Positions 2,785 through 29,138 of a stretch of 30,155 bases of DNA are shown here, in pieces (position 1 is the first letter of the stretch; each line of letters starts with the position of its first letter). Below the pieces are notes generated by a model, which worked only from the letters and a program-made list of their open reading frames with translations, was not told the origin of the DNA and ran no database searches. Origin of the DNA: a virus. The stretch spans positions 1 to 30,155 of IMG/VR virus record IMGVR_UViG_3300009432_000031; one strand, 5' to 3'. The position numbers and the translations under genes are program-made.

Positions 2785-5076
2785 CTAGTAAGCTACTTCG
2801 ATACGTTCACCAAACTTTTGCTGGTTGACAGTTCCGTAGACTATATTCTGTAGAACTCCAGAGTCGTTGTAACGATATACTGCTCCACAGTCAGTTAGAC
2901 CGTTAGCATCTGCATTTTTCGCTGATACTAGTATATCATTACCGAAGACTGCCACACCAGCACGATTGACTACAGTACCATCACCCCATAAATCATCGTT
3001 CGCTTGTTGATCACCACTAATAACAACCTGATTAGTAAATCCTTCATCATATATATAAACTTTGCTGTTAAACTGAGTATGGTCGACAACAACCAACTTT
3101 CCGGATAAAGTAGTTTCTAAGGAATAGCCATATTGGGCAGAAACATTCGCAGTGTGTAGGACTTGTCCAGTTGAAGATAGTATCTCTACTCCGTAATCTC
3201 CACTACTCGCTGCCCAGTTGTCACCGAATTTAACAAAGCTTTGCAGCCCGTGACTGGTGGGGATAAACGTTTGATTGGATCCATCTACATCAAAACCATG
3301 TATTCCTCTAGCAGTGGCATCCCACTGCTCTGAACCGGCATAAATTCTACCCTCAAGGAATCTAAGTCCGCCGCCGCCAACGGTGCCGATTCGAGAGTAT
3401 GTACCTGACACTACAGGAGTAATAACGTATGTAGGAACATTACGATCCAGTAAATCTACGACGATAATCGCACCAAGGCCATTTGGATAATATTCAGAAG
3501 CGTTAATGAATATTTTTCCTGCTCCAATAGCGATACTCCTAGCGCTGTCGTTAATTTGGGCTGCCATAGCGGAATCTACTGTCGCATCGTTAAAGGTCTG
3601 TTCTAACTGACCAGTAGTTTGGTCATAAATTCTAATTTCACTATTTGACCGTGCGATACTTACAACTTTACCATCACCACCGGCACTAGACTGTGGTGTT
3701 AGTGTTTGTAAAGTGATAGAGTTACTACCGTCAACATCAGACATCACCAAACCACCACGGATAGTATTGTAGGTCGCGCTCCACACGTTAGACGTAGAGT
3801 ACATTAAGATTTTATTTGGTGTAGGTGCGCTCGGTGCACTCGGTGCACTAGGCGGAGCAACATATGGAAGTTGAGTCGCTGGCGCTGCCGGCGCTGTCCA
3901 CACATGTGCTTGGTTCTGTCCATCATTCCTCGCAACAGTAATTAATGATCCGCCCGAAATCGAGACAGACTGTCCCATGAAATCATAATCAACTGGAGTT
4001 GGATTATTTGCAGTATATAACAATGAACCATCTGTCATATCATAAACAAAGGCACGGCCGGCGTAGTCTGTTGTCCGGCCGGGGACGTGGGCGTAGTCAC
4101 TAATAGCAAGATATTTACCTGAAACAGAAATATCCCTACCGAAGCTGCCTGTGGCGATAGTTGGAGTAATAGTTTGTAGTAAAGAACCATCGGTTATATT
4201 AAATACGTATACTACACCAGTGTCATATCCAAAGGTAGGACTATCTTCGTTAGGAGTAGCAATGCAAATATAGTCACCAGAAATCTTCACTGTGGTGCCG
4301 AAATAATCCAAGCTGCTTCCTTGTGGATTATTGATAGTTCTCAAGAACTGTCCGTTTGAGGCGTCAAATATTTCTACGTACCCGTGGTTTGATCCGCTCG
4401 GCACACCAACCGCGACATAAGAGTCCGATATAGCAACAGCGTGTCCCCAACGTTGGTTTGTTCCTACTGGCGCATGTGGTGTAATTTCTCGTACTAGTAA
4501 TCCTGTAGAAACATCATATTGATGAATCTTTGGCTGGTCGGCGTATGCATCTATACCAATTGCGGCATACTGTTCAGACAATCCAATACAGGAACCGAAT
4601 GCAAGGTCTACCCCAGTGTTTTGAGCATAACCAGCAGGGAGGAATGAATGTAATAATGTACCAGTTGTTACATCATGTAACCAAGCTTTACCAACACTGA
4701 ACCCATCATTGGTCGCGTAGTTCTTGGATGCTATTAATATATGGGTTTCGTTCATAAGCAACCCTCTATATCCCCCGAACCCACTGGAACCGTACGGTTC
4801 TGCATTGTCTGGCCTAGTTATGGTATGAACAACATTACCAGAAGTATCATATATAACTACTTCGCTGGGCCCGTAGATATGACCTTGAGCAAACCCAGTG
4901 CTGTTACTTGCCACGGCACCTGTTGAATCACCACCACCATTCGATAGATTAAATGGCTGTGTTGCTGAAGTCCAATCATATGCTGGAGCTGGCATCACCG
5001 GCGCTGGGCCAGCGTTTGAGATGGAGAGTTTCATGCCCGCACTAAATTTGCTTCCTGCTTTTAATTTGATACCCAT
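2785..5076 (-). CDS. Double beta-propeller (FG-GAP-like repeat) protein
   Basis: 763 residues, ATG start at 5076 with AAAGGAA about 12 nt upstream. The first half holds blade-like repeats of the pattern (F/W/M)G-x-x-(V/I)-x-(I/V)-S-x-x-Y-(V/I)-x-(I/V)-(G/A), seen near residues 160, 210, 259, 312 and 367. Each is followed by a strand ending in a phrase such as VFNITDGSLLQTITP. This is the look of an integrin-type FG-GAP or PQQ-like beta-propeller. A Pro-Ala-Ser linker (residues 395-421, APPSAPSAPSAP) leads to a second repeat array up to the C-terminus. The N-terminus is short, basic and then Pro/Ala-rich (MGIKLKAGSKFSAGMKLS), with no signal peptide. Beta-propellers in phages may be host-binding or virion decoration proteins; which applies here is not visible. 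It lies within a cluster of virion-interior genes but lacks the capsid-targeting N-terminus. Confidence 0.75.
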   Translation of the reverse strand: MGIKLKAGSKFSAGMKLSISNAGPAPVMPAPAYDWTSATQPFNLSNGGGDSTGAVASNSTGFAQGHIYGPSEVVIYDTSGNVVHTITRPDNAEPYGSSGFGGYRGLLMNETHILIASKNYATNDGFSVGKAWLHDVTTGTLLHSFLPAGYAQNTGVDLAFGSCIGLSEQYAAIGIDAYADQPKIHQYDVSTGLLVREITPHAPVGTNQRWGHAVAISDSYVAVGVPSGSNHGYVEIFDASNGQFLRTINNPQGSSLDYFGTTVKISGDYICIATPNEDSPTFGYDTGVVYVFNITDGSLLQTITPTIATGSFGRDISVSGKYLAISDYAHVPGRTTDYAGRAFVYDMTDGSLLYTANNPTPVDYDFMGQSVSISGGSLITVARNDGQNQAHVWTAPAAPATQLPYVAPPSAPSAPSAPTPNKILMYSTSNVWSATYNTIRGGLVMSDVDGSNSITLQTLTPQSSAGGDGKVVSIARSNSEIRIYDQTTGQLEQTFNDATVDSAMAAQINDSARSIAIGAGKIFINASEYYPNGLGAIIVVDLLDRNVPTYVITPVVSGTYSRIGTVGGGGLRFLEGRIYAGSEQWDATARGIHGFDVDGSNQTFIPTSHGLQSFVKFGDNWAASSGDYGVEILSSTGQVLHTANVSAQYGYSLETTLSGKLVVVDHTQFNSKVYIYDEGFTNQVVISGDQQANDDLWGDGTVVNRAGVAVFGNDILVSAKNADANGLTDCGAVYRYNDSGVLQNIVYGTVNQQKFGERIEVAY

Positions 5077-5137
5077 TTGTTATGTTTTCCTTTGAAAATA
5101 GTAGTTAAATTTTGTATTGCTATTTAGGTATTTCGGA

Positions 5138-5410
5138 TTATGCTAAATCCTTGTCGTGGTTGAGACCACCTTTCTTTTTCTTTACTATAAAGGCGTTGAC
5201 TCTCGCCATTCCCCACTGCTGGGGGGTTGTGCCTGGACGGTGCCCAGTCTTCCATGCAGCAACTCCACGTTTATACACAGTATTTAGTGTATCTGTAGAT
5301 ATACCTGACTTCTTTGCCTTTGCAGAGATACCGTCCGGACTTTCATCCAAGTCAACTGTATCATACATGGCATATCTCTTTTCGTCAAGGTATTTCTTAA
5401 AATTAATCAT
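5138..5410 (-). CDS. Capsid-targeted small protein with conserved Trp/Gly-rich C-terminus
   Basis: 90 residues from the ATG at 5410. An in-frame ATG at 5419 would add three residues; I prefer 5410 because the protein then starts MINFKKYLDEKR, matching the capsid-targeting N-termini of its neighbours, with GGAA just upstream. Residues about 20-24 read VDLDES, another possible gp21-type cut site. The C-terminal half contains VYKRGVAAWKTGHRP followed by a Gln-Gln-Trp-Gly segment and an Arg-Val-Asn-Ala-Phe motif. This block recurs in many T4-like marine phages as a small domain of unknown function (I believe the DUF5824 type, from memory). The start overlaps the stop of the nucleotidyltransferase gene by 4 nt. 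Probably a packaged protein; its activity is unknown. Confidence 0.75.
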   Translation of the reverse strand: MINFKKYLDEKRYAMYDTVDLDESPDGISAKAKKSGISTDTLNTVYKRGVAAWKTGHRPGTTPQQWGMARVNAFIVKKKKGGLNHDKDLA

Positions 5411-7086
5411 GGTTTCCATTTCCCTAACATACTATGCAGTGTTTTAGTGCTCATACCTGAATATGATTTGGCGACCTTCTGTGCATAATACTCTGTACTA
5501 TGAGTTAGTTTACCTTTATTCTCATCACTCTTACGAGTCAGAAGCTTCTTTAAAGTAGACAAAGCATGTTGATATTCTTTTTTATTGATGGTCTTAGACT
5601 TTACTGTGTCCATGAACCCTTCGTTAATACCTTGACTATTCTCTTCTGCAACACAATTCGGGACTGTCTTACCACCTTTCTTTTTCATACCGACTTGCTT
5701 GTAACCGTCCCAACAATCTTCGTCGTACATGTCCTTGAATGACTTGGTGTACTTGGAAGGTTTGGTCTTTGCAGTTGCATCGCCTGGCGCAGGGCCGTCT
5801 TTCTTTGCTTTGAAGTGTGCGTCACGTTTTACCTTGGTAGATTTCTTCAATCCTTTGTGATAACGTGATGGTTGAGTCCCTTCACGATCCTTGATATCTG
5901 GATCCTGTCCTTCGTATTGCACGACCGGACTAGTAGTTTTGAAGTTCTTCTTACGCATGATAGTCTTGTTAACCATTTCGAACTCACCGTCCTTATAGTT
6001 TACAACGACAGGTAAATTTAGGTCTGACTGCATATCTTTCAATACTGCCTCAGCATCCCCATGCTTTTTTATGCCTTTGCCCTTGTTCTTTGCAATCTTC
6101 TTAAACAGACGTTGAAGTTCCGTTACCTTAATAGCAGGACTATTACGTGTATCGTTCATACGGTCTGCGAAGTGTCGAGTAAACTCAATGTCAATATTGA
6201 ACTTCTTCAATAGACGATCACCGAACTTCTCTAAATCATTAAGTTGCTTCTGGTCAACGTCTTCGGAGATCAACTCCACAGACTCTAACCATTTACGCAT
6301 CTTCTTACCATCGCTAGTTTCAACGATGACGTAGTTTGCACCTAGGACGGATATAGTAGCAACCTCTTCACTTTCTTTGATTACTACTATATCGCCTACC
6401 TCGAACAATTCTCCTTGCACGAACTTCTCTCGTGTTTCGGATACTGTCTCTAGTTCTAGGTGATTACGGAATCCATTTGCTTCTTTTAGCCCCATACCCT
6501 TACGCACGTCGTTAAATAACTTACGTGTGTCTGGATCTGACATTGACTTAGGAACACCTTGCGAGAAAGAAACGAAATCATCACTAGATGCGTTCTCTCT
6601 TTGTTTGGAAGCAGACATGCCTTCGACACCAGTAGAATCTGGATCTCTCTTACCGGCAGATACTATCTTGATATTTTTAAAATTATAAAAACCATGTCTT
6701 GCTTTAGTACCATTATACTTATTTAATAGTACATCGAATTCTGTAATTCTGTCGTCTCCAACAACCAGTGTTACGGATTTGTAACCTTGGTCATATAGTA
6801 CGACCATGGCGTTGATAGCTGTTTTAACAGACTTATCCACCATGATATTCCGTGCGTGTTTCGGAAACATTTTTCTTGTGTGCTTGATTTTATCTGCGTA
6901 TGCTAAAGGATTCTTCTTCGCGTCTTGTGACTGTGACACAAATACTTTATAGTCTGATTTCCCAGACTTTATTGCTAACGCATCCATCACCTTGCCATGG
7001 CCAATCGTAGGAGGATTCATACGACCAAACGTAAAGTAAACTTCTCGTTCTTCTTCGACAAGGTATTGACTAAAATTCTTAATCAC
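5407..7086 (-). CDS. Capsid-targeted nucleotidyltransferase multidomain protein
   Basis: 559 residues from a GTG at 7086 overlapping the previous stop (GTGA). It starts MIKNFSQYLVEEER, a capsid-targeting-like sequence. Residues 16-170 form a cytidylyltransferase/NMN-adenylyltransferase-type Rossmann domain: FGRMNPPTIGHGKVMD carries the TxGH nucleotide-binding motif (27-30) and SASKQRE (158-164) corresponds to the family's ISSTxxR loop. Next come a small beta-rich segment (about 222-270), a possible protease site (LESVELISED), and a domain at about 300-385 with HFADRMNDTR and TIMRKKNFKT. A lysine-rich segment (405-455) contains a Lys-Asp-Gly-Pro-Ala-Pro-Gly-Asp signature. A second possible cut site, GINEG (486-490), precedes a helical tail. 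The enzymatic family is clear from motifs; the substrate (NMN, a sugar or an alcohol phosphate) is not. I infer a packaged, possibly processed, multifunctional protein. Confidence 0.8.
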   Translation of the reverse strand: MIKNFSQYLVEEEREVYFTFGRMNPPTIGHGKVMDALAIKSGKSDYKVFVSQSQDAKKNPLAYADKIKHTRKMFPKHARNIMVDKSVKTAINAMVVLYDQGYKSVTLVVGDDRITEFDVLLNKYNGTKARHGFYNFKNIKIVSAGKRDPDSTGVEGMSASKQRENASSDDFVSFSQGVPKSMSDPDTRKLFNDVRKGMGLKEANGFRNHLELETVSETREKFVQGELFEVGDIVVIKESEEVATISVLGANYVIVETSDGKKMRKWLESVELISEDVDQKQLNDLEKFGDRLLKKFNIDIEFTRHFADRMNDTRNSPAIKVTELQRLFKKIAKNKGKGIKKHGDAEAVLKDMQSDLNLPVVVNYKDGEFEMVNKTIMRKKNFKTTSPVVQYEGQDPDIKDREGTQPSRYHKGLKKSTKVKRDAHFKAKKDGPAPGDATAKTKPSKYTKSFKDMYDEDCWDGYKQVGMKKKGGKTVPNCVAEENSQGINEGFMDTVKSKTINKKEYQHALSTLKKLLTRKSDENKGKLTHSTEYYAQKVAKSYSGMSTKTLHSMLGKWKP

Positions 7087-8702: not shown

Positions 8703-9853
8703 AGTAACACTTTTCCTGTTGCTGGTTTGCTCTTATAGTCGCACATTATGTGTGAAGGATACAAACCCCCCTGTTTATTTCTAATGTTTATCTTAAAGTC
8801 AAAATATTGATTGCTGAACACGATATCAATACGTTTACCTTTGCCTGAAGCACCACCGTATTGAATCTCAACATCACCCGTGATAGTAGAATACTGCGGA
8901 TTTTTCGCAGAAGACATTTCCCAGAAGTAAACCTTTCCACCTTCCATACCATGAACCATCCAATAACCAGAGCCGATACATGTTTGAAGGAAATTCTTTA
9001 ACTTGGTGTTGTTCATAGAGGTTTTTACAGAAGGAAACTTTTGTTTTCCATACTGCGTGAACACCTCACAAAACATAGTTTCGTCCAACCCAAACGTCTC
9101 TATTATCTGCTTACCGATTGGAGTAGTGACTTCATTATTTAACATGTCTCTCTGAGTGAAGATCATTCCAACACCAGCATTCATGAAAGTGAGAGTACTT
9201 GAGAACTTCAAAGATAGATATGATTTTTTGTTGTTGGCGTGAACTAGAGTAATATCAGTCAACTTCTCACCATGTGCTTTATGGTCATTAGGTGCAATAT
9301 ATAACTTACCACCCTGTACTGCGATAGGACGACTTTGGTTCTGTCCACCTTCCGCCAATATCTTTACTACCGGAGATCTCTCCTTTTTAGCACAAGCTTT
9401 GAGAATGTAGTCTACTTCTTTCGAATACGTCTTACTACTCATAGTACCCGAAAGTTGTTCGTTTAGAACATCAACGAAGTCGTGTTCGAATTTAATACCT
9501 TTGTTTACTCTGGTACCGCCGGCAGGTTGACCACCAAATTCTTCGGTCTTCTCTAATTTGGATATAAGAAACGATTTATTCGCAGACTGCCCTTGAAATT
9601 TACCGCATACTAAAATCTTTCTTTGGGAAACGGGTAAAAGTTTCAGAGCAAATATCATACCCACTATATCATGGGTATCTCCAGAAGAGATCTTCTTGTC
9701 GTTTATCTTAATATATTCTGCGACCAGAACACCTTCTCCTTCAATAACAAAATTATTAGACTTGCCGTTTCTAGAAAAAACCTTTTCGACAAGAAGCTCA
9801 GAACGATACTCCTTGTTCTCCTTGGTAATTTCTTTGTAAGATAAAGCTGCCAT
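8699..9853 (-). CDS. Putative PD-(D/E)xK-like nuclease
   Basis: 384 residues, ATG at 9853 with GAAGGAA upstream. Unlike its neighbours it has no clear capsid-targeting N-terminus (MAALSYKEITKENKE). The middle shows a possible restriction-enzyme-like core: Glu in GIKFEHDFVDVL (near 123), Asp in KLTDITLV (near 200), then after a turn SYLSLKFSS (211-219), where Ser-Leu-Lys would stand for the E-x-K strand as in some divergent members. The C-terminal half is beta-rich and unrecognised. The nuclease assignment is inference from this spacing. The gene is preceded by the composite early/late promoter at 9892-9919 and followed directly by the ligase-fold gene, consistent with paired nucleic-acid processing. 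An uncharacterised virion protein is the alternative. Confidence 0.55.
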   Translation of the reverse strand: MAALSYKEITKENKEYRSELLVEKVFSRNGKSNNFVIEGEGVLVAEYIKINDKKISSGDTHDIVGMIFALKLLPVSQRKILVCGKFQGQSANKSFLISKLEKTEEFGGQPAGGTRVNKGIKFEHDFVDVLNEQLSGTMSSKTYSKEVDYILKACAKKERSPVVKILAEGGQNQSRPIAVQGGKLYIAPNDHKAHGEKLTDITLVHANNKKSYLSLKFSSTLTFMNAGVGMIFTQRDMLNNEVTTPIGKQIIETFGLDETMFCEVFTQYGKQKFPSVKTSMNNTKLKNFLQTCIGSGYWMVHGMEGGKVYFWEMSSAKNPQYSTITGDVEIQYGGASGKGKRIDIVFSNQYFDFKINIRNKQGGLYPSHIMCDYKSKPATGKVLL

Positions 9854-9891
9854 AAAAATTCCTTCGTTATTTAACTCAAGTTTGTTTATAG

Positions 9892-9919
9892 AGTATAACA
9901 GATACTATTTATATGTCAA
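9892..9919 (-). promoter_or_regulatory. Composite sigma-70 and T4 late promoter
   Basis: On the minus strand TTGACA (9919-9914) is followed immediately by TATAAATA (9913-9906), then TATACT (9897-9892), 16 nt after the -35. The late octamer thus sits inside the spacer of a host-type promoter. Both would drive the nuclease-like gene starting at 9853. Confidence 0.6.
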
Positions 9920-10628
9920 GAGCATTAGCACTATTTTCGGCATTATATTGAGCAATAGTCTCACGGAGTGGTCGAACCCAATTGTCGCGGTGTTCAACAA
10001 ATACTTGTGGTTCATTATTGTCTACAGAGATGATTGTGACCAACTGAGTGATAGGCATTCCTGTGCGTTCTTCCCACATGATTGCATAACCAGACTCTTG
10101 CATGAAGTAATTCTTGATCCAGTCAAGACGTTTAGGTTTCATAGAAGTCTTGTAGTCAATGATAGACAACTTACCATCGAAGACACCGACGCAATCCACA
10201 CGACCGGCAACACCTAAGTGATTAGAGTATAGAGGTGCCTCTTGCGCATGAACAATAGTCAAGCGTTCGTCAAGGATAGGTTTGATTTTCAAGAAAGATT
10301 CTATAAGATCAGGGGTACGTTTAGTCAACGTCTGTTCACCAGTATCGATGTTCATGGCCAGATACTTGTCATAGTCAAGATCATTGTCTACGTACTTCTC
10401 ACAGATTTCGTGAACAGCAGTACCACGCGTAGAGGCGCGATAAGAAATTCGATTTGCTTCTTTCTCACCGACACGAGCTTTCCATTTCGCAATAGAATCA
10501 CGAGATAGTACAGAAAGTACGGTAGTGATAGAGGGAAGGTTGACACCTTCGGGAGTTTCGTATTGTCGACCGAACTGTGTAGTAACAGCGGTCATTTCTT
10601 GAAGTTCGACAGGAACGTGTGTAAACAT
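9909..10628 (-). CDS. RecB/Cas4-family PD-(D/E)xK exonuclease
   Basis: 239 residues from the ATG at 10628; an upstream in-frame TTG at 10640 is less likely. Motifs of the RecB-like nuclease family are plain, numbered from this start: RGTAVHEICEKYV (68-80) with the His-Glu pair, AGRVDCVGVFDGKLSIIDYKTS (141-162, in two parts GRVD and DYK) giving the metal-binding Asp and the D-x-K, and FMQESGYAIMWE with the conserved Gln/Tyr helix. The family includes 5'-3' exonucleases and Cas4-like enzymes used in recombination and DNA processing; similar genes are common in T4-like marine phages. No Cys residues for an Fe-S cluster of Cas4 type are seen. Driven by the sigma-70 promoter at 10659-10687, so probably early. 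Confidence 0.85.
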   Translation of the reverse strand: MFTHVPVELQEMTAVTTQFGRQYETPEGVNLPSITTVLSVLSRDSIAKWKARVGEKEANRISYRASTRGTAVHEICEKYVDNDLDYDKYLAMNIDTGEQTLTKRTPDLIESFLKIKPILDERLTIVHAQEAPLYSNHLGVAGRVDCVGVFDGKLSIIDYKTSMKPKRLDWIKNYFMQESGYAIMWEERTGMPITQLVTIISVDNNEPQVFVEHRDNWVRPLRETIAQYNAENSANALDI

Positions 10629-10658
10629 AATATAATCCAATTCAATTTAATATACTAC

Positions 10659-10687
10659 ATTATAAAGGATTTGGACAGATTTGTCAA
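10659..10687 (-). promoter_or_regulatory. Sigma-70 promoter, perfect consensus
   Basis: Minus strand TTGACA (10687-10682), 17 nt, TATAAT (10664-10659). The expected start of transcription lies about 25 nt before the ATG of the exonuclease gene. Confidence 0.85.
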
Positions 10688-12114: not shown

Positions 12115-12336
12115 TTACACCTGTGTTTGCTGCTTTACCCAATTGAGTTCTTGGATGATTCTGTTATACCACTTAGAATCTGCTTCCGAATTATTCGGAT
12201 TGTCTCGTTCTATAGTCAACTGTTCTATTCGAACGTCGAGATACTCAACTCTCCTAGAATTCTTACGTCTTAGTCGGTCAAGCATACCCTGCTTGGTACT
12301 AGTCATCACTTCGATATTTTTGGTATTATAATCCAT
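12115..12336 (-). CDS. Small charged helical hypothetical protein
   Basis: 73 residues, ATG at 12336, overlapping the end of the cytochrome peroxidase gene by 11 nt. AGGA lies 11 nt upstream; an internal ATG at 12306 (MTSTKQGMLDRLR) with GAAG nearby is an alternative. The protein is rich in Arg, Glu and Gln (DRLRRKNSRRVEYLDVRIEQL), consistent with a short coiled coil. No family recognised. It is likely translated from the same transcript as the cytochrome. Confidence 0.65.
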   Translation of the reverse strand: MDYNTKNIEVMTSTKQGMLDRLRRKNSRRVEYLDVRIEQLTIERDNPNNSEADSKWYNRIIQELNWVKQQTQV

Positions 12337-13741
12337 TGTCAGTACATCCTAAGTCGTCTTGTGACTGCTGGTCATTGTTGGTTACACAGTTACCACTAGG
12401 CAATGTGTCTGGTACATATCTCATCAAATCTGGATCATACAAACTCTGCTCTAAGAATGCAATCAAGTTTGAGATATCTTCTTCACTCAAATCTAATGGA
12501 ACAAAACGGTAGTCCACATCAGTCGTTTCAACTTGTGGATGTTGTGGGACTGCGGCAACTTTATATCTTACCACATCTTCAACACTGGTGAACGAACCAC
12601 CATGACCAAATACAGTAGTATCTATAAGATTGTAAAGTGGTGGTACTTTGAACGCGAACTTTTCCATACTGTCACCAGTAAATCCAGCACGACCTTCTTT
12701 TACCGCTTGCTTAACTTCACCGACAGTCTCTTCCCACATATCCAAGTCATGGAAACCAAGGGTCATAAACACTTCTTGTGCCATAGAACCTACAGGGGAT
12801 GATAGTGCAGGGCCATTATGACAACCAGCACAGTTACCTTTACCGAAGAATACTTTTGCACCTTCTACTTCCTCTATAGACAGTGCAGTCTCATCTCCAC
12901 GTAGGAACGTTTGGAATGGTGCACGGTTTGCAAGGATAGTTCTTTCGTATGCGGCAATCGCAAAGGATGCTGCCTCTAACATATCGGTCGGTCGTGAAGT
13001 TCCGTATGCAGCCTCAAACATCATCTGATAGGTTTCGTTGTTACTGAGTATAGATTCATCACTAGTAACATCCATTCGGTGAACACCTAGACCGGCAACT
13101 GCTTGTGTTTCAAGACCAGACAACTGTCGTAGGTTTGCTTCCTTCGGAGTACCTTCGGTGAAGTGACGTTCAGGGTCAATACCCACATTCACTATACCGC
13201 CCATCACATTACCAAACTGACCGTTCCATAACATCACTTCTTGATATGCACTATTCAATACAGTAGGAGATGTTAGTGGTTGTATGTCTGCAAGTTCTTC
13301 CATACCTTCTGCAAAAGTACGGTGATCAAAACCGACACCGCCTTCACCAATACCTTGGCGAATACCAGACTTGAATCCGTTCTGGCCGTTGTGACATGAT
13401 GCACAAGACCACGTGTCGACCATATCGGTCTTGCTAGTCTCAGACGAGGACATACCAGTTTCATGATAAAGTAACTTACCTAACTCTACTTTCTCAGAAG
13501 TAACAGGGTTGCTAGGATCTTGGGGGATGTTGAAGAAGTCATCACTTTCTGGGAGAATGTATCCTTCGTACGAACCTGTAGGAGAGGTCACGTTCATTAT
13601 ATCCCTTAACTCACCAATAGATATCTCAAGAGGAGTAGGTGCTGGGGGAATAACTGCAATCGGTTCAGGGGAACTAGCAGATCCTCCACCACACGATGCT
13701 AGGAAAATAGATGATGATAATAGTAGTACTTTGTACTTCAT
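12326..13741 (-). CDS. Di-heme cytochrome c peroxidase/MauG-family lipoprotein
   Basis: 471 residues, ATG at 13741 with AGAGATCC upstream. Residues 1-17 are a lipoprotein signal: a charged start, hydrophobic core and lipobox LASC (Cys17), then a Gly/Ser/Pro-rich tether. Two c-type heme sites are complete, CASCH (113-117) and CAGCH (304-308). Family landmarks are LGKLLYHETGMS before heme 1, SPTVLNSAYQEVMLWNGQ after it, and FKVPPLYNLIDTTVFGHGGS, the usual segment near the second heme domain. The length suits the family. Such enzymes reduce hydrogen peroxide or carry out long-range oxidations in the periplasm using cytochrome electrons; heme attachment would need the host cytochrome maturation system. 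The gene follows tRNA-Ser by 21 nt and probably shares its sigma-70 promoter (13864-13892). Intact and in an otherwise phage context: a candidate host-derived metabolic gene. The family is certain; the role during infection is unknown. Confidence 0.93.
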   Translation of the reverse strand: MKYKVLLLSSSIFLASCGGGSASSPEPIAVIPPAPTPLEISIGELRDIMNVTSPTGSYEGYILPESDDFFNIPQDPSNPVTSEKVELGKLLYHETGMSSSETSKTDMVDTWSCASCHNGQNGFKSGIRQGIGEGGVGFDHRTFAEGMEELADIQPLTSPTVLNSAYQEVMLWNGQFGNVMGGIVNVGIDPERHFTEGTPKEANLRQLSGLETQAVAGLGVHRMDVTSDESILSNNETYQMMFEAAYGTSRPTDMLEAASFAIAAYERTILANRAPFQTFLRGDETALSIEEVEGAKVFFGKGNCAGCHNGPALSSPVGSMAQEVFMTLGFHDLDMWEETVGEVKQAVKEGRAGFTGDSMEKFAFKVPPLYNLIDTTVFGHGGSFTSVEDVVRYKVAAVPQHPQVETTDVDYRFVPLDLSEEDISNLIAFLEQSLYDPDLMRYVPDTLPSGNCVTNNDQQSQDDLGCTDNGL

Positions 13742-13762
13742 GATATAGGATCTCTTTGTAAA

Positions 13763-13850
13763 TGGCGGAGAGTGTAGGATTCGAACCTACGGAACCTTGC
13801 GGTTCGTCTGATTTCAAGTCAGGTGCATTCGACCACTCTGCCAACTCTCC
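13763..13850 (-). tRNA. tRNA-Ser (anticodon TGA)
   Basis: 88 nt on the minus strand with the long variable arm of class II tRNAs, acceptor GGAGAGT/ACTCTCC, anticodon loop CTTGAAA and encoded CCA. The sigma-70 promoter ends 13 nt upstream, and the cytochrome peroxidase gene starts 21 nt downstream. Confidence 0.95.
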
Positions 13851-13863
13851 ATTTAATACAGCT

Positions 13864-13892
13864 ATTGTAACACTTACTTATACGACTGTCAA
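13864..13892 (-). promoter_or_regulatory. Sigma-70 promoter for tRNA-Ser and the cytochrome gene
   Basis: Minus strand TTGACA (13892-13887), 17 nt, TACAAT (13869-13864). Transcription would start a few bases before tRNA-Ser and can run on into the cytochrome peroxidase gene. Confidence 0.8.
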
Positions 13893-14096: not shown

Positions 14097-14462
14097 TTAA
14101 TTCTTACGTAATCCTTTACTACCTTTATGGAACCGTCCCCATATACAATGAGCAACTTCATGTCCTATAAGTTCTGGTTCGTACTTCCACAATGGATCTT
14201 TAATATATATCTTACACGTACCTTCGGTTTCATTCCATCGGGTGAATGCACTTACTTTGTTCCAACCGTGTCCTATGAATTCTTTACGTGCAGCATCATA
14301 CTCTTCATCAGTTTCTAATAAGATGAATTCTACGATAGGTGTTAGGTTTTCGATTTCCTTTACTAAAAATTTATGATCATCCTTGGCGAATTTAAAACTC
14401 TGTGCAGATGCAAAAGATGCTACGATCAGAGCGATCATTATAAAGGCGTTTTTAATTGTCAT
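14097..14462 (-). CDS. Exported HExxH putative metallopeptidase
   Basis: 121 residues from the ATG at 14462; upstream in-frame sequence runs through tRNA-Pro and is not coding. The N-terminus MTIKNAFIMIALIVASFASAQS is a typical Sec signal peptide with a cut after ASA. The C-terminal part has LIGHEVAHCIWGRFHKG, the HExxH zinc-binding helix of metallopeptidases followed by another His that could be a ligand. Two Cys residues in the mature part could form a disulfide. The protein is small for a protease, and catalysis is inferred from the motif alone. It would act in the periplasm or outside the cell. Next to tRNA-Pro and other envelope-directed genes, it may help lysis, block superinfection or alter the cell surface; none of these can be chosen from sequence. 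Confidence 0.75.
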   Translation of the reverse strand: MTIKNAFIMIALIVASFASAQSFKFAKDDHKFLVKEIENLTPIVEFILLETDEEYDAARKEFIGHGWNKVSAFTRWNETEGTCKIYIKDPLWKYEPELIGHEVAHCIWGRFHKGSKGLRKN

Positions 14463-14479
14463 GTCGTTTCCCAAAAAAG

Positions 14480-14556
14480 TGGTCGGAGATGGAGGATTTG
14501 AACCTACGACCTCTGCACCCCAAATGCAGCGCACTACCAAACTGTGCTAATCTCCG
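14480..14556 (-). tRNA. tRNA-Pro (anticodon TGG)
   Basis: 77 nt on the minus strand, acceptor CGGAGAT/ATCTCCG, anticodon loop TTTGGGG between CTGCA and TGCAG, encoded CCA. The HExxH gene starts 17 nt downstream, so the tRNA and mRNA probably share a transcript. The 86 nt upstream of it (14557-14642) hold only weak hairpins such as agtc/gact around 14620. Confidence 0.95.
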
Positions 14557-16147: not shown

Positions 16148-16176
16148 ATTATACTACAAACGACACTGTCTGTCAA
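16148..16176 (-). promoter_or_regulatory. Sigma-70 promoter for tRNA-Asn/tRNA-Leu
   Basis: Minus strand TTGACA (16176-16171), 17 nt, TATAAT (16153-16148). The -35 overlaps the stop of the 70-residue gene. It would drive tRNA-Asn, tRNA-Leu and probably the membrane protein and DUF3310-like genes. Confidence 0.9.
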
Positions 16177-16498: not shown

Positions 16499-16527
16499 AT
16501 TATAACAAAAAGGATCTGGTCTGTCAA
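16499..16527 (-). promoter_or_regulatory. Sigma-70 promoter for tRNA-Glu
   Basis: Minus strand TTGACA (16527-16522), 17 nt, TATAAT (16504-16499). It begins TTGACAGAC, as do those before tRNA-Asn and the primase-like gene. Confidence 0.9.
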
Positions 16528-16781
16528 TAGATCTTTTCAATTAAAATGGTAATTTCTCCAATAGAACTTCGTACCATGATTGCCCAATCGAACACATCAA
16601 CATGTACAGTATCATACTGGTAATCTTTGGTGATCTCTTCTGCGGCACGATCTATTGCCCGTTCTGCGTCACCGTACACACAGATTAATCCGCCTGTGTG
16701 ATCGTATAATATATATGCATTATCTACGTCCGTGTCTTCCGAGAATAAACCTGTTGGAAGTTCTGCATAATCGATTGTCAT
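16524..16781 (-). CDS. Small acidic hypothetical protein
   Basis: 85 residues, ATG at 16781 with AGAGGAAT upstream; the start overlaps the stop of the wall hydrolase gene by 1 nt. The protein is acidic, with alternating strands and one helix (NAYILYDHTGGLICVYGD, then AERAIDRAAEEITKDY). No family recognised. The end overlaps the -35 of the tRNA-Glu promoter. Close coupling to the wall hydrolase suggests co-expression but not necessarily shared function. Confidence 0.7.
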   Translation of the reverse strand: MTIDYAELPTGLFSEDTDVDNAYILYDHTGGLICVYGDAERAIDRAAEEITKDYQYDTVHVDVFDWAIMVRSSIGEITILIEKIY

Positions 16782-17305
16782 TAGTATTCCTCTTTATAGA
16801 AAATGTGATCACCAATCCTACCTATAAGTCTCATCTTTTCGTGGTAACTCCACGTTGGATTTACATAGTCAGCATGGTAATGCGTAGATCCTTCTGTTAA
16901 ACCATTATGCTTAGTATAGTACATCATGTCATGTGCAATATCTTTTGCACGTAACCAAGAGTATGTTTCTAACGGTTCATCAGAGAGACCGTCACAATAC
17001 CAACTAAACTGGCACTTATTCTTCCTTGGTATTTCTAGACCTCTATCGAGGCCCCACTGACTATATACCGCTTGCTTTACAACACCACATATCGTTGATG
17101 GGTATCGTCTATCCTGTACTCTATTTAGAGTAACGTCTGCAACTGAATACTGACCGGCAAGACTTTCGCTTCTTGCCTCATGGTATATATTCATTGCGAG
17201 ACATTCAAGTTCTCTTTCGTCTTGGATATTAGGGGTTTCTGCATGAACAAAAGTAATGTAACCTAAAAAGGCAAGCATAGAAATCGAGATATATAAACGC
17301 ACCAT
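16781..17305 (-). CDS. Exported SleB-family cell wall hydrolase
   Basis: 174 residues, ATG at 17305 with TAGGAGAAC upstream. The N-terminus has a short basic start, a hydrophobic stretch and VHAETP, a signal peptide cut after HA. The rest is the Hydrolase_2/SleB fold: CLAMNIYHEARSESLAGQ (with the catalytic Glu of HEAR), VADVTLNRV, TICGVVKQAV, QFSWYCDG, then THYHADYVNPTW near the C-terminus. The family cleaves peptidoglycan (spore-cortex and lytic-transglycosylase-like activity). With its own signal peptide it could serve as a holin-independent endolysin, or as an exported wall-modifying enzyme. It has a perfect sigma-70 promoter at 17331-17359, so expression from early times is possible, which is odd for a lysis gene. 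Confidence 0.9.
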   Translation of the reverse strand: MVRLYISISMLAFLGYITFVHAETPNIQDERELECLAMNIYHEARSESLAGQYSVADVTLNRVQDRRYPSTICGVVKQAVYSQWGLDRGLEIPRKNKCQFSWYCDGLSDEPLETYSWLRAKDIAHDMMYYTKHNGLTEGSTHYHADYVNPTWSYHEKMRLIGRIGDHIFYKEEY

Positions 17306-17542: not shown

Positions 17543-18220
17543 TTAGCGAGTTTTATTTTTCTTTTCTGCGGCAATCCACTTCTTAGACTTGGCATTAGTT
17601 ACCGGAGACTGAGTAAATTTTGTTACGTCTTTGTATGCACGAAGAGTTTCGGCAGTCCAGTCTTTACCATCTGAGTTATCGACAACTAGAAAGTTCTTCT
17701 TACCGAACAAGGTCTGGAATGCACCTATGTTGTTTTGGATCTCTTGCCAATATTCTTTGACCATATCATCAGGTAGTTTTCTCGCTCTTGCGCGATTTCT
17801 AGCCATAGCAGTTTCTAGGTCAGTGTTGACGAATATCATCGCAACATCATATCCAATCTTTTTAAGGTCTTTTGCTTGGGTCTTCATCTTTTCAAGATTC
17901 TTACCAGTACCGTCGATGACTAATCCTAACCGACCTTTAATATACATCTCCAGTCTAGTTTTAGTTATTGCAGTAGCCTTACCTCGAAGTTCTTGACCTT
18001 TAATAGAAAAGATATTCTCAGGACTCATTTCTAGTCCTGCTTTCTTTAGTCCTGCTTCGAACGCATCGTCAGAATTACTTACTCTATAACCCATAGAGGT
18101 TAGTCCAGTCTTACCGACTATGAAAGACTTACCTGATCCAGGCCCGCCTGCAAGAAAGACTGCTTTGAAGATTGCAGGGTCGTTGACCCCTTCGTTCAGG
18201 AAGGTTTTAAAAGTTTTCAC
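17543..18220 (-). CDS. Capsid-targeted P-loop kinase (zeta-toxin/polynucleotide-kinase-like)
   Basis: 225 residues from a GTG at 18220 overlapping the previous stop (GTGA). It starts MKTFKTFLNEGVND, the window's closest match to the T4 capsid-targeting sequence. Then VFLAGGPGSGKSFIVGK (21-37) is a Walker A loop, LVIDGTGKN (about 99-107) a Walker B-like strand with the Gly-Thr-Gly-Lys turn, and MARNRARARKLPDDMVKEYW an arginine-rich lid. This is the AAA_33/zeta-toxin-like kinase group, which phosphorylates sugars, nucleotides or nucleic-acid ends. The exact substrate is not visible. The N-terminal tag, distant from the main virion cluster at 0-9.9 kb, suggests that it too is packaged and injected. 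The upstream SAP-like gene may be its partner. Confidence 0.8.
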   Translation of the reverse strand: MKTFKTFLNEGVNDPAIFKAVFLAGGPGSGKSFIVGKTGLTSMGYRVSNSDDAFEAGLKKAGLEMSPENIFSIKGQELRGKATAITKTRLEMYIKGRLGLVIDGTGKNLEKMKTQAKDLKKIGYDVAMIFVNTDLETAMARNRARARKLPDDMVKEYWQEIQNNIGAFQTLFGKKNFLVVDNSDGKDWTAETLRAYKDVTKFTQSPVTNAKSKKWIAAEKKNKTR

Positions 18221-22153: not shown

Positions 22154-22466
22154 GTGTATCCTTTTTGTATAATGAGCCAGTGTCTATCGCTGCGTCTAGG
22201 ATGTCCCCTAACACTTCACTGGCGAACTCTTGCAATGCAACATGATCACTATTATACACGCTTGTGTCGTCTGTGTCAACCACTTCGAAGCTAAAACTTA
22301 TATTTTGCTCCTCGCCATTAATTCGTACATTTTCAAAACGGATTGTTACGTCTCCAAAAGGAGAGCGAAGAAGATCAACATTCCATGCGTCCTTACCATC
22401 GACTACAGTAGGTATTAATTTGTAGTCGATGTTTTCCGAAGGTTTATCTAGATCTAAGGGTTTCAT
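22104..22466 (-). CDS. Conserved-position hypothetical protein between uvsX and gp41
   Basis: 120 residues, ATG at 22466 with GAGGAAA upstream and a 1-nt overlap with the uvsX stop. It has a beta-rich middle (DVTIRFENVRINGEEQNISF) and a disordered, acidic, Thr/Asp-rich tail. The 3' end overlaps the helicase gene by 50 nt. No domain is recognised. T4-like marine phages often carry an uncharacterised gene at this place, so a replication or recombination accessory role is a context-based guess. An internal promoter lies in its middle. Confidence 0.7.
   Translation of the reverse strand: MKPLDLDKPSENIDYKLIPTVVDGKDAWNVDLLRSPFGDVTIRFENVRINGEEQNISFSFEVVDTDDTSVYNSDHVALQEFASEVLGDILDAAIDTGSLYKKDTHDGHQPTADDSTESTD
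22251..22279 (-). promoter_or_regulatory. Internal sigma-70 promoter ahead of the gp41 helicase gene
   Basis: Minus strand TTGACA (22279-22274), 17 nt, TATAAT (22256-22251), within the 120-residue gene and 98 nt before the helicase start. It could give the helicase its own transcript. Confidence 0.7.
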
Positions 22467-23512
22467 TATACTATTTCCTCTAGAATCAATTCAGGGTTGA
22501 TTTCGCTCTTGTATCCTATCTGGTAAGTCTTCTGTAGGAATGTAGCAAAGTCACTTGTTTCGAAAATAGGTGCCCAGAACTCATTGGTCAAAGTATCCTT
22601 AGTACGGAACTTCTTATCTTCTGCTTCAGTACCGTGACAACGAGAGTACCAACCATTACTTGGTTTGATAACATAACCACCAGCCAATGCAACTTCGAGG
22701 AGACCAGAGTTCTTCTCAACACCACCATCCCAAGATACCGAGATTGGAATCTTAGACTGCTCTTTAACAAACCGAGACTTCTCGACCTTGATAACAAAAT
22801 CATAACCAGTCACTTCGGTACCAGTCTTATTCTGTCGACGACCGATAATCCAGATATTGTCGGCAGAGTAATAGATACCAGTACCACCACTAACTACATC
22901 TTTCGGAAACAAGCCAATCTCTTTATAAGTGTGATTGATTGCAAGCATCGGAATATTCTTCATCGCCAGATACGGAGTTGACATACGGAACAGACCTTTC
23001 AGTGCCTTCGCACGTGACATGTCGGCAACACCTTTCTCGCTCAGTGCATCGTCAAGTTCTTTCTTAGACGCAAGGTTACCAATAGAATCGATAACGATAA
23101 TAACATCGTCTTTGCGGTCTAGGTTCTCTAGTTGACTGATCAAGTCAAACTTCAACTCTTCGACATTTGCTATAGGTGTATGCAACACTCTACTAGTATC
23201 GATACCGAACTGTGCGAAGTATGACTGAGGTGATCCAAACTCGGAATCATAGAACAACATCACTGCGTCGGGTTTGGCTTCAAGGTATGCGCCTGCCATC
23301 AATAATGCAAAAGATGTCTTAAAGTGTTTAGATGGCCCTGCAAGAACTGTAAGGCCTGGCGAGATACCACCATCTACAGAACCAGATAACGCGACGTTCA
23401 CCATCGGAACATCAGTCGGTACCATCTCTTTTTCTGTGAAGAATTTACTCGTCGATAAGATCGCTGTCTCTTTGATCTTCGAGTTCTTCTTTAGTTTGTC
23501 CATTATTGACAT
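22466..23512 (-). CDS. uvsX: UvsX RecA-like recombinase
   Basis: 348 residues from the ATG at 23512, chosen because GGAGGA lies 5-6 nt upstream; a TTG at 23524 would place that ribosome site inside the gene. Walker A is GPSKHFKTS (59-67), as in T4 UvsX (GPSKSFKSN), with FYDSEFG after it, VIVIDSIGNL as Walker B, and AINHTYKE and VSGGTGIYYSADNIW from the DNA-binding loops. UvsX forms filaments on single-stranded DNA and drives strand exchange and recombination-dependent replication in T4. The start overlaps the end of the UDP-glucose dehydrogenase gene by 68 nt, and a promoter lies inside that gene (23573-23602). Confidence 0.96.
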   Translation of the reverse strand: MSIMDKLKKNSKIKETAILSTSKFFTEKEMVPTDVPMVNVALSGSVDGGISPGLTVLAGPSKHFKTSFALLMAGAYLEAKPDAVMLFYDSEFGSPQSYFAQFGIDTSRVLHTPIANVEELKFDLISQLENLDRKDDVIIVIDSIGNLASKKELDDALSEKGVADMSRAKALKGLFRMSTPYLAMKNIPMLAINHTYKEIGLFPKDVVSGGTGIYYSADNIWIIGRRQNKTGTEVTGYDFVIKVEKSRFVKEQSKIPISVSWDGGVEKNSGLLEVALAGGYVIKPSNGWYSRCHGTEAEDKKFRTKDTLTNEFWAPIFETSDFATFLQKTYQIGYKSEINPELILEEIV

Positions 23513-24431
23513 TTTTTCCTCCAAAATTTACGAATGTAATGTTATTAACTTTTTCTCTTTCATCAAGGGTGTATTGTACACGATAAGTACTATTGATGTC
23601 AAGTACTTTCTCTAACAAATCGAAACTAGTTGTAGTTCCATCAGCAAACTCATGTGTTGAAAAGTCTAAGAATGCTCTTGTGTCTTTGGGTAGACATGCA
23701 CCACCGAATCCTCGTTTACCGTCAAAGCCAGGCACACGGGTGTGACCTACACCAACTCTATCGTCTTTACCTACTGCACGAACAATAGTATTGTAGTTGC
23801 AACCATACATGTTGACCAGATCATACAACTGATTAAAGAATGTGATCTTAGTAGACAGGTATGAGTTAATAGTATATTTAACAAAGGATGCTTCGTATGC
23901 GGTCATACGGTGATAGTCGTTAGTCTCGCATGCACCAAAGATCTCATACACATCAATAAGTTCTCGTGCGGCTACCGGCATACCACCTATAACATGAAAC
24001 TTAGCACCGACAAAGTCTGCCTTAGCATTCTTCTCTGTCAAGAACTCAGGGTTATAAACGAAACGATCGATCTGTTCTCTACTCATACCAGAGTAAAGAC
24101 GGTCAATAGATTCGGGGGTGATTGTAGATTTAACTACGACAAGAGCATCAGTATAGTTAAGACATTTAAGCACCGAAGCTTCTACGATAGAAGAATCTAC
24201 CGAACCGTCATCTGCGGATGGTGTGGGCGCACATATAAAGAAACACTTAGGATGAATATCTGCTGGTGCGTCTGTCAGAGTATCAAGGGTAGTTTCATAT
24301 TTGGGGTCATAGTAGTTGAAGTCGACAAGCGGATGCATAAACGCATACTCGACTGCCTGACCAACAAATCCATGGCCAACAATTCCTATTCGAAATCGTG
24401 TGGTAACATCGTCTGCTGTTGCTCTAGTCAT
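23445..24431 (-). CDS. UDP-glucose/GDP-mannose dehydrogenase family enzyme, short form
   Basis: 328 residues, ATG at 24431, 1-nt overlap with the epimerase stop. An N-terminal Rossmann domain has IGIVGHGFVGQA (15-26), followed by CAPTPS, KSTITPES, YNPEFLTEKNA, FVKYTINSYLSTKITFFNQ with the conserved Lys185 and Asn189, and GFGGACLPKD with the catalytic Cys246. The pattern fits oxidation of a UDP-hexose to a uronic acid (UDP-glucose to UDP-glucuronate) with NAD. Typical bacterial enzymes have 390-450 residues; here the C-terminal nucleotide-binding domain is mostly missing, replaced by a short acidic tail (KEELEDQRDSDLIDE). It may be a minimal form or may depend on a partner. The adjacent epimerase could use its product. 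Confidence 0.88.
   Translation of the reverse strand: MTRATADDVTTRFRIGIVGHGFVGQAVEYAFMHPLVDFNYYDPKYETTLDTLTDAPADIHPKCFFICAPTPSADDGSVDSSIVEASVLKCLNYTDALVVVKSTITPESIDRLYSGMSREQIDRFVYNPEFLTEKNAKADFVGAKFHVIGGMPVAARELIDVYEIFGACETNDYHRMTAYEASFVKYTINSYLSTKITFFNQLYDLVNMYGCNYNTIVRAVGKDDRVGVGHTRVPGFDGKRGFGGACLPKDTRAFLDFSTHEFADGTTTSFDLLEKVLDINSTYRVQYTLDEREKVNNITFVNFGGKNVNNGQTKEELEDQRDSDLIDE
23573..23602 (-). promoter_or_regulatory. Sigma-70 promoter ahead of uvsX
   Basis: Minus strand TTGACA (23602-23597), 18 nt, TACAAT (23578-23573), in the 3' part of the dehydrogenase gene and 60 nt before the uvsX start. Confidence 0.65.
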
Positions 24432-26347: not shown

Positions 26348-26664
26348 CCGAAGAAATCCTCCAAGTATCGTTTGAAAAGTTCGGGGTCATCAACAAACCT
26401 CTCGTCCACGCCACGGTAATTCCTTCGGACACTTTTTTTCATGTATTTTTTTAAATGTTTTTTCATAGTGCCCTCAGAAAACTTCAATCTCTTCTTATGA
26501 GACCAATCATTATCTTGTGACCATTTATCATTGTCTAAATGTTGTTGGGAAATATCAAAGTCAAAAGAGTCTAGTGGTCTATCACTTTTTCTTCCACCGC
26601 CTCTGATAAACATCCTCTTCCCAGAATGCGTATCTGTATGGTTAGTCTTATTATTAGGTATCAT
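26344..26664 (-). CDS. Small basic protein with DNA-polymerase-like C-terminal clamp motif
   Basis: 106 residues, ATG at 26664 overlapping the polymerase stop (ATGA), with GGAGGA inside the polymerase gene as ribosome site. The protein is very basic and hydrophilic, with a Lys/Arg block ([18 protein letters not shown]). It ends RYLEDFFG; the polymerase ends TLEDFFG. In T4, gp43, gp55 and gp33 all bind the gp45 sliding clamp through short hydrophobic C-terminal tails of this kind. I infer a clamp-binding protein, perhaps in the role of gp33 (late coactivator), which has similar length, though no other similarity to gp33 is visible. Confidence 0.7.
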
Positions 26665-29138
26665 CCAAAGAAATCCTCCAATGTGGCACGAGGTTCAGAA
26701 ACCCAACCGACTGCGTCAAGAATTGGTTCGAGAGGGTCAATGAAAGTCTTACTGAACATTAAGTCGTAATCGATATACTTACCCAGTCCCAGTTCTTCGG
26801 GGAGATGTTGAGGATATGCCACAACGTTTTCACCCAGACGATTCGGTACTTTTAGATAGACGAACTTTACCTTCTCGCCTGGCTTGACCAGTTCATATCT
26901 ATTACCAAGATTATTCTCCTTGATTAGATTGTTATAGCATAACGCACCACGAACGTGTATGGGAGTACCCTTCTTGAAAATAGTCTCTCGGTCTTTCCAC
27001 TTATCGAGATTAGAGATACCACGGGGCCACGAAACATCTTCGGGTGGTAATGTATTAAACAGAGTCTTGAACTCACGGATAAATCTCTGGGTGGTTTCCT
27101 CGGTGCCTTCTACAATGACGCGGAAGATTTCTTTCATCTTGTCACGGACAACCGAAGGAGTCGATGACTTGATTGCCTCGATACCCATCATCTTGAGTTT
27201 AGGTTCTGCGTACTGTACACCCTCAGAGTTATGTACATTAAGGATATATCGTTTCTTCGCCATCCAGATACCACGGTCTGCGATTACCTCACGTTCCATC
27301 ACCATACGATTCTCGTACGCACCAGTAACTTCTGCCATCTCATTATAAGAATTTTCCAGAACTTTCTCGAAGTGCTCGGAACATATCTTGTCAAGAAACT
27401 TTACAGGGTCTTTAGGAGAAAACTTATCCACAAGGGCAGACATACGAATGTAGAGAGAATCCGTGTCAATTGCTACAACATAATCTTCATCTGTTTTAAG
27501 AAGTTTCTGCATCTCATTATTGGCTGCTCTCTCTGCCCATTTGATTGCAAGTTGCCCTGCAAGAGTAATTGACTCTGCAACACGTTGATCAAAGTAACGG
27601 AAGTATCGATTACCGAGCGCACCATAGAGGGAGTTCATAAGAATCTTGATAGCCATCTGTTGGTTGTCCAGTGACGATATCCTATAGGCCAAAGCATTAG
27701 TCGGATTCTTCTGATATTCCTGCTGGAGTTTCAACATCTCCTTCTTGATAATACTACGTTCCGTATAGTATTGTTTAATCACCGTAGGAATAACCCCCTC
27801 TCTATCATGTGAGAAAGCGACCCCAGTTGGCGCAATAGAGACGTTAGATTCAGAGACCTTGTATGATCCATCAAGGAACTTATCGACGCTTACACCATTA
27901 TGGAAACCGTCCATCACAGTCTCAGGTGACATGTTATATTGAACAATGATGTTGGGATATAGAGACGCCAAATCAAAAGAGGTAACCCAGTCGTGTGACC
28001 CAACTTGAGGTTCTTTAACATAACCGCCCGGATATGAAGTCTTAGGCTTCTCAGATTTGGAAGGGACAACTACCTTCATCTTGTTCAGCATACGGTAAAT
28101 GATGCTGTCCCAGATGTTAGTAGTACCAAGTGTGTCACCATAGTTAACACCACCACGATATGCCATGGTGAGTACCAGAGTAATCAAGTCGAGTTTCTCA
28201 TCGATCTTGTGAACCAACTCCACGTCTTTGATGTTATAGTCAATAAACTTTTGGAAGTCGTTTTCATAAAGGGCGTGGAGGTTTCCGTGCTCCTCATAGG
28301 ACAACTTGCGTTCACCCAAGACAACGTGGGCGATATGGTCTAGACGATAGGATTCTTGTTGACCTAGAGTGTTGAGTGTAAACTTCTTAAAGATCTCAAT
28401 GTAATCTAGGTGCTCGACACCTTCAATCACGTATTCCTGATTGGCGCGACCTTGAATAGTCACATTACGTTCACGTACCGCGCCCCAAGGAGATAGTCGT
28501 TTCAATAACGTGTCATCACCGAACAGGTTAACGCAACGGTTAACGATGTATGGGATATCGAAAAACCGACTGTTCCAACCTGTCAGAATGTCAGGAGCGT
28601 AGTGAGACCAGTGCTCAATAAACTTGCGGAGAAGATCCATCTCGTGGTCGCATTTGATATAGAGGACTTCTTCACGAGTAGTGACATAGTCTCCACATGC
28701 CCACACCCAGTAGGTGCCATCATTCTTGCGCATTGCAATAGAGGTCACTGGATATGCAGCCTTGCCTGGCTCAGGGAAACCTTCCTTACTATAAACCTCG
28801 ATATCTATATTGGCAGTCCGGATTAGATCGCGGTCGAAGTTTATCTTATTGGGAAATTGTTCACCGATATACTGGGCAACGTAATTGTTGTTACCATATA
28901 CCTTGAAGTTATGCACATCAGCATACTTCTTGAGGAAGTCAGTCGCATCAGACATAGAGTCCAAGACGCACTCGGTAACGGGGAGTCCGTCCAAAGTCTT
29001 CCACTCAGATTCGTTCTGACTGGTGACATATAGTTTAGGTTGGAAAGGAATGCGTTTCTTGACCTGTAGGCCGTTCTCGTAACCGCGATATAGAATGTGC
29101 TTACCCATACGGATAGCAGAAGAGTAAAATTTTGTCAT
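26661..29138 (-). CDS. 43: Family B DNA polymerase, T4 gp43 type
   Basis: 825 residues, ATG at 29138. The 3'-5' exonuclease domain has NIDIEVYS (Asp112/Glu114), [15 protein letters not shown] and [10 protein letters not shown]. The polymerase domain has [14 protein letters not shown] (motif A), [17 protein letters not shown] (motif B) and [12 protein letters not shown] (motif C with D-T-D). The C-terminus TLEDFFG is a sliding-clamp-binding tail like that of T4 gp43. Length is slightly below T4 gp43 (898). Two nearly identical sigma-70 promoters precede it (29144-29210). No Shine-Dalgarno is visible before the ATG, unusual in this window, so its translation may be under special control, as T4 gp43 is autoregulated. 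Confidence 0.97.

Follow-up and report, generated by a model that had tools for sequence, protein, structure and literature searches.

A conserved phage gene for an atypical di-haem lipoprotein of the CCP_MauG superfamily in T4-like phages

The metabolic genes known from phages mostly serve cytoplasmic processes or photosynthesis. The stretch of viral DNA analyzed here (hereafter the window, 30,155 nt, positions 1 to 30,155 of IMGVR_UViG_3300009432_000031) carries an open reading frame which a sequence-only reading had taken for an intact di-haem cytochrome c peroxidase lipoprotein. This raises the questions of whether the gene truly belongs to a phage, where it comes from and which chemistry its product would perform at the envelope of the infected cell.

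Gene Product and Superfamily Membership

The reading of an uninterrupted di-haem lipoprotein in a T4-like phage holds: the translated frame has zero internal stops over its 471 residues, opens with a lipoprotein signal (MKYKVLLLSSSIFLASC) that includes LASC17, and contains CASCH at residues 113–117 and CAGCH at residues 304–308 (Table 1). A lipobox-type signal is found in nearly all phage copies of the protein. The small ORF overlapping the gene end gave no Pfam or PHROG match.

Table 1. Features of the di-haem gene and its surroundings in the window
Feature	Position	Strand	Details and evidence
Di-haem CCP_MauG-superfamily lipoprotein gene	12326..13741	(-)	471 aa; open frame, Pfam PF03150, PDB homologues
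Lipobox L14-A-S-C17, residue +2 = Gly	13691..13702	(-)	Sequence
First haem c site C113-A-S-C-H117, peroxidatic (P) haem	13391..13405	(-)	Cys and His invariant in 40 aligned members
W172-N-G, equivalent of WDGR, Trp between the haems	13220..13228	(-)	Invariant in member alignment; profile alignment to canonical CCPs
Q213-AVAGLGV-H221-R222, distal P-haem pocket	13076..13105	(-)	Q213, H221 and R222 invariant; aligned to QAxxPxxxxxEM of canonical members
Second haem c site C304-A-G-C-H308, electron-transfer (E) haem	12818..12832	(-)	Cys and His invariant
Y393-K394, place of the E-haem distal ligand	12560..12565	(-)	Invariant; HMMER and HHalign pairings
Possible ribosome-binding site AAAGAGA, 9 nt before the ATG of the di-haem gene	13751..13757	(-)	Sequence
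Small ORF, 73 aa, 11-nt overlap with the di-haem gene end	12115..12336	(-)	Relatives in 12 phage loci
Phage PD-(D/E)XK exonuclease, PHROG 298, conserved downstream flank	9909..10640	(-)	Profile matches, locus comparison
tRNA-Ser(TGA), 21 nt upstream of the di-haem gene	13763..13850	(-)	ARAGORN and Rfam; gap conserved in relatives
Sigma-70-type promoter TTGACA-17-TACAAT, TG before -10	13864..13892	(-)	Motif scan; equivalents in relatives

The protein matches Pfam CCP_MauG (PF03150) with an E-value of 2.1e-24 and 87.3 bits against a curated cut-off of 25.6, which is also exceeded in five long phage records, and it combines a predicted secretion signal with two CxxCH haem c sites, the combination by which the superfamily is recognized. 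In the PDB its sequence matches di-haem bCCP, MbnH and MauG, and its AlphaFold model (pLDDT 79, pTM 0.83) retrieved bCCP, MauG and MbnH folds with Foldseek (E 1e-9 to 5e-14). The best NCBIfam models were the MauG-like and MbnH ones, yet the curated cut-offs were far from reached (HxS MauG-like, 119 vs. 340; MbnH, 114 vs. 363; MauG, 88 vs. 444). By its sequence, the protein is a member of the CCP_MauG superfamily, yet it qualifies neither as a canonical bCCP nor as MauG/MbnH. Counting of CxxCH patterns across phage genomes was discarded, since a reversed control was about equally frequent.

The suggestion that such an enzyme lies outside the standard phage complement agrees with our searches: PHROG profiles gave no match to the protein, a fold search of BFVD with its model gave none either, and in the open-access literature we found no description of a phage-encoded di-haem CCP/MauG protein. 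Like the auxiliary metabolic genes of marine T4-like phages, the gene is a host-derived metabolic gene kept by T4-like phages, but it differs from them in encoding a di-haem c-type periplasmic lipoprotein. The superfamily and host-derived phage genes as such are known; new are the atypical pocket and the compartment and redox class, in which our searches met no description of a phage protein.

A Conserved Locus in T4-like Phages

The other genes of the window include a T4-like polymerase, UvsX and a DnaB-like helicase, assigned by PHROG, and phage tRNAs surround the di-haem gene. With its counterpart in Phage C48C1 the polymerase shares 73% identity, and with cyanophage polymerases about 46%. 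C48C1 aside, the closest relatives of the DNA polymerase (26661–29138, minus strand) are in cyanophages, and those of UvsX (22466–23524, minus strand) in Acidovorax and Stenotrophomonas phages; these affinities may reflect either mosaic ancestry or a lineage between both phage groups.

Phage C48C1 (OQ984149.1) is a circular genome of 156 kb classified in Kyanoviridae, whose record names no host. At the corresponding locus it encodes a 64% identical orthologue, CDS0082, annotated as a hypothetical protein. As in the window, tRNA-Ser lies upstream, and tRNA-Ala and the exonuclease gene downstream, but in C48C1 the tRNA-Ser is 1.3 kb away with two genes between. When IMG/VR was scanned twice, relatives of the di-haem protein turned up on 60 contigs, four of them 137–160 kb long. 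The copies in these contigs and in C48C1 show 48–80% identity and share a conserved T4-like locus. Together with the window this gives 62 phage-borne copies, and clustering groups them into 36 at 99% identity and 32 at 95%. Every complete copy is free of stops and has two CxxCH sites, and partial copies end at contig ends. Four bacterial-looking matches in the 'phages' collection (H2–H5), about 25% identical, were left out of the count; two of them bear bacterial organism names (H2 was checked) and two are records of about 10 kb without annotation.

In the tRNA-bearing group the order is fixed: tRNA-Ser precedes the di-haem gene, and tRNA-(Gly-)Ala and the gene of the PHROG-298 exonuclease follow it. 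Among 76 loci around close exonuclease relatives, the di-haem gene is present in 36 and missing in 31 with enough flank, while nine were too short; nearly all of the 31 also lack the tRNA cluster. Other genes of the window include those for a putative secreted metallopeptidase-like protein (HEVAHCIW; 14097–14540, minus strand) beside the tRNA genes, with relatives in 25 phage loci; a signal-bearing cell wall hydrolase (Hydrolase_2, E 5e-21; 16781–17305, minus strand) in the tRNA region; a P-loop kinase that matches Zeta toxin (E 5e-12; 17543–18220, minus strand), with relatives in 27 phage loci; and a 763-aa phage protein with FG-GAP/beta-propeller repeats (2785–5076, minus strand).

Nei-Gojobori dN/dS is about 0.05–0.14 for most phage pairs, and reaches 0.23 and 0.34 in two closely related pairs. 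Together with the locus comparison and the tree, these estimates describe a metabolic gene of host origin that has become fixed in phage genomes and is kept by purifying selection. This is one mark of an auxiliary metabolic gene; on the other, expression during infection with an effect on host metabolism, the promoters described below bear. The two findings named beforehand as fatal to the sequence-only reading do not apply: misassembly at the gene borders is excluded because the same locus recurs in numerous independent contigs and in the circular genome of a phage, and the flanks are not bacterial, as phage tRNAs, the exonuclease, polymerase, UvsX and helicase genes lie around the gene. Taken together, these data show a real, conserved phage gene for a CCP_MauG lipoprotein with two haem c sites.

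Promoter and Expression

The promoter preceding the gene ends 13 nt before tRNA-Ser, and 0 of 200 shuffles were as good. In relatives with an adjacent tRNA-Ser, a promoter occupies the corresponding place with 10–12 of 12 matches (equalled in 0–2 of 200 shuffles); in those with intervening genes, a promoter with 11–12 of 12 matches lies roughly 45–60 nt before the matched gene start. Within the tRNA-bearing T4-like group, almost every copy thus follows a near-perfect sigma-70 promoter, and none of this kind was seen in sub-group L041–L043, where the tRNA cluster is missing. In T4-like phages, sigma-70 promoters of the host type are a sign of early genes, from which early expression would follow; the promoter sequences strongly suggest that the di-haem gene is transcribed from a strong host-type promoter early in infection, probably together with tRNA-Ser(TGA). 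Three perfect TTGACA-17-TATAAT promoters are also present on the minus strand, at 16499–16527 (before tRNA-Glu), 16148–16176 (before tRNA-Asn) and 10659–10687 (before the exonuclease gene), and by such motifs the tRNA region apparently comprises several separate early units.

An Atypical Pocket Shared With Bacterial Relatives

Gln213, His221, Arg222, Trp172, Tyr393, Lys394 and both haem motifs are invariant across the 40 phage and bacterial members aligned. The distal pocket of the Neisseria bCCP consists of Gln108, Pro112 and Glu118. Canonical relatives from the same bacterial genomes as our members read WDGR...QAxxPxxxxxEM, and the profile alignment places Gly217 at the canonical Pro and Arg222 at the canonical Glu, so that of the Gln/Pro/Glu set of canonical bCCPs the di-haem protein keeps Gln213 only. 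The E-haem distal ligand is Tyr in MauG, MbnH and BthA and Met in bCCP. The di-haem protein has no conserved Met for a His/Met-ligated E haem and presents the invariant Tyr393-Lys394 there: in the HMMER alignment Tyr393 falls on the MbnH ligand Tyr, and in that of HHalign, one residue off, Lys394 falls on the canonical Tyr column. A conserved distal His for reductive activation on the P haem is absent from the sub-group. The claim that all MauG/CCP landmarks are present therefore stands for the haem sites, the Gln and the inter-haem Trp, and has to be given up for the catalytic Glu, the distal Pro and the E-haem Met, and with them the identification as a cytochrome c peroxidase complete in its landmarks.

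The comparison with canonical di-haem bCCPs (Neisseria CcpR, 6fu3; Shewanella, 3o5c) follows the same division. The fold is shared (Foldseek E 5e-14, TM 0.74 by target length), yet sequence identity is about 20–25%, and the phage enzyme has an insertion of about 30–40 residues between WNGQ and QA. The missing Glu matters in the light of published work, which describes Gln, Pro and Glu as common to bCCP, MauG and BthA and reports that Glu mutants lose activity; bCCP and BthA require this acid-base residue to turn over peroxide, and MauG and BthA require it to form bis-Fe(IV) (PMC6405878; PMC10094543).

Bacterial homologues annotated as 'cytochrome c peroxidase' occur in Alteromonadaceae, Flavobacteriia, Lewinella/Saprospiria and Rhodothermota. 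They show about 40–55% identity, share the motifs QEVMLWNGQ, QAxAGxxVHR and VVxYK, and many have a lipoprotein-type signal. Since these relatives have the same Glu-to-Arg and Pro-to-Gly replacements and likewise lack the Met, they form a distinct sub-group with the phage proteins, and, judged from the alignment, the atypical pocket is inherited from this bacterial sub-group and is not a product of phage decay. In plant-type peroxidases, the distal His and Arg work as an acid-base pair. By analogy, we infer that the adjacent His221 and Arg222 could do the same.

Origin of the Gene

A maximum-likelihood tree built from 63 sequences places the phage proteins as a single group within Alteromonadaceae sequences, with Bacteroidota and Rhodothermota further out. 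The fork uniting all phage rows is supported at 92/76, and its two main sub-groups at 100/95 and 100/100. The relatives and the tree that had been proposed as a check thus show, at the level of sequence, that the phage gene traces to an Alteromonadaceae-like gammaproteobacterial source. Bacterial copies are chromosomal and have variable neighbors, whereas the phage copies possess their own promoter and locus.

The single bacterial row inside the phage group is L046, a Halieaceae MAG, sister to the window copy (98/93). Its contig piece is bacterial, with alaS, lysC, csrA, tRNA-Ser(GCT) and an MTHFR-family gene; within its positions 3345–6341, the phage-clade copy lies downstream of csrA and tRNA-Ser(GCT) and has an added (GNS)n linker after the lipobox. 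The gene was not found in the other 139 Halieaceae genomes searched. Because it occurs in 1 of 140 genomes of the family, on a bacterial contig, L046 may represent a phage-to-bacterium transfer, which is the simplest reading; for the same frequency, we do not claim Halieaceae as the phage host. A tRNA-Ser crossover common to L046 and the phage was rejected, the similarity there being merely tRNA-like.

Possible Roles of the Di-haem Enzyme

Peroxide reduction, which is the default chemistry of the CCP_MauG superfamily, appears the most likely role from the sequence comparisons, albeit a tentative one. The host polymerase would transcribe the gene early, from the promoter just before it or before the adjacent tRNA-Ser. 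Maturation of c-type cytochromes by Ccm and lipid anchoring of lipoproteins are established knowledge, and the signal and haem motifs strongly suggest that the host would export the protein, lipidate Cys17 and anchor it at the envelope facing the periplasm, and that the host Ccm system would load both haems; the proposed dependence on host cytochrome c maturation thus gains support by analogy with other c-type cytochromes. The N-terminal haem (His117; pocket Gln213/His221/Arg222) would then react with H2O2 or a related peroxide, with electrons supplied by periplasmic donors of the host by way of Trp172 and the C-terminal haem (His308, with Tyr393 or Lys394). On balance, peroxide would be cleared at the infected cell's envelope during disturbed respiration, which would protect host and progeny until lysis.

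The conserved Gln, inter-haem Trp and haem sites speak for such a peroxidase, and the Arg222 and Gly217 replacements and the missing E-haem Met and distal His speak against it. In some phages a peroxiredoxin might serve the same task inside the cell: five of the 12 longer phage records, among them C48C1 and the two from the L041/L043 sub-group, encode one, and none was found in the other seven, some of which are fragments. This co-occurrence fits the peroxide theme, but it is not general. Phage peroxiredoxin (Redoxin) genes located about 3–10 kb from the di-haem gene are found in L041 (3126–3686), L043 (4735–5310) and L002 (5349–5942).

The main rival to peroxide reduction, though a rather unlikely one, is a MauG/MbnH-like reaction: peroxide would serve to oxidize Trp, Tyr or some other group in an envelope protein of host or phage, for example to change a receptor, prevent superinfection or disable a defence located in the envelope. 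The best NCBIfam models point that way, as do the invariant Tyr at, or one residue from, the C-terminal-haem Tyr ligand of MauG, MbnH and BthA and the predicted lipid anchor in the envelope. Yet the scores remain far under the cut-offs and the Glu used for bis-Fe(IV) formation in MauG and BthA is missing (PMC6405878). Moreover, the phages have no mau/mbn operon, and no conserved partner gene adjoins the di-haem gene in phages or bacteria: the bacterial homologues have no conserved neighbor, and the phage copies none that resembles a substrate. The hypothesis of a partner gene was rejected on this ground, and a free-standing enzyme is likelier than one with a dedicated protein substrate. In the sub-lineage L041/L042, a radical SAM-SPASM gene (9212–10099, plus strand, in L041) starts on the last base of the di-haem stop codon, and the two genes are possibly a modification pair, which would favor this reading.

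About equally improbable is a new periplasmic oxidation by a pocket rebuilt on the invariant His-Arg in place of Glu, by which a phage early gene would rewire electron flow or modify the envelope. Slightly less probable is an electron-transfer or oxygen enzyme without peroxidase chemistry, whose pocket would bind O2 or a small molecule, or which would act as a respiratory electron outlet during infection, in line with the earlier idea of redirected electrons. That the Glu and Pro of peroxidases are gone, and that their invariant replacement is common to the bacterial homologues, suggests a different chemistry, but we found no linked electron-transfer partner, and among solved structures no close relative with an activity of this kind. 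A contaminant, an assembly error or a bacterial passenger gene without function can be dismissed as highly improbable, for although homologues reside in bacterial chromosomes, and one Halieaceae row within the phage clade, 60 viral contigs and a circular phage genome have the same phage flanks, dN/dS is about 0.1 and the dedicated promoter is conserved.

Significance

The finding suggests that a T4-like phage lineage known mainly from metagenomes alters the envelope peroxide or electron chemistry of the infected cell. A widespread bacterial sub-group labelled 'cytochrome c peroxidase' is exposed as having no catalytic Glu, which makes that annotation doubtful. For the phages themselves, a conserved, probably early di-haem lipoprotein ties infection to host cytochrome c maturation and implies that envelope redox chemistry would be worth controlling for infecting T4-like phages.
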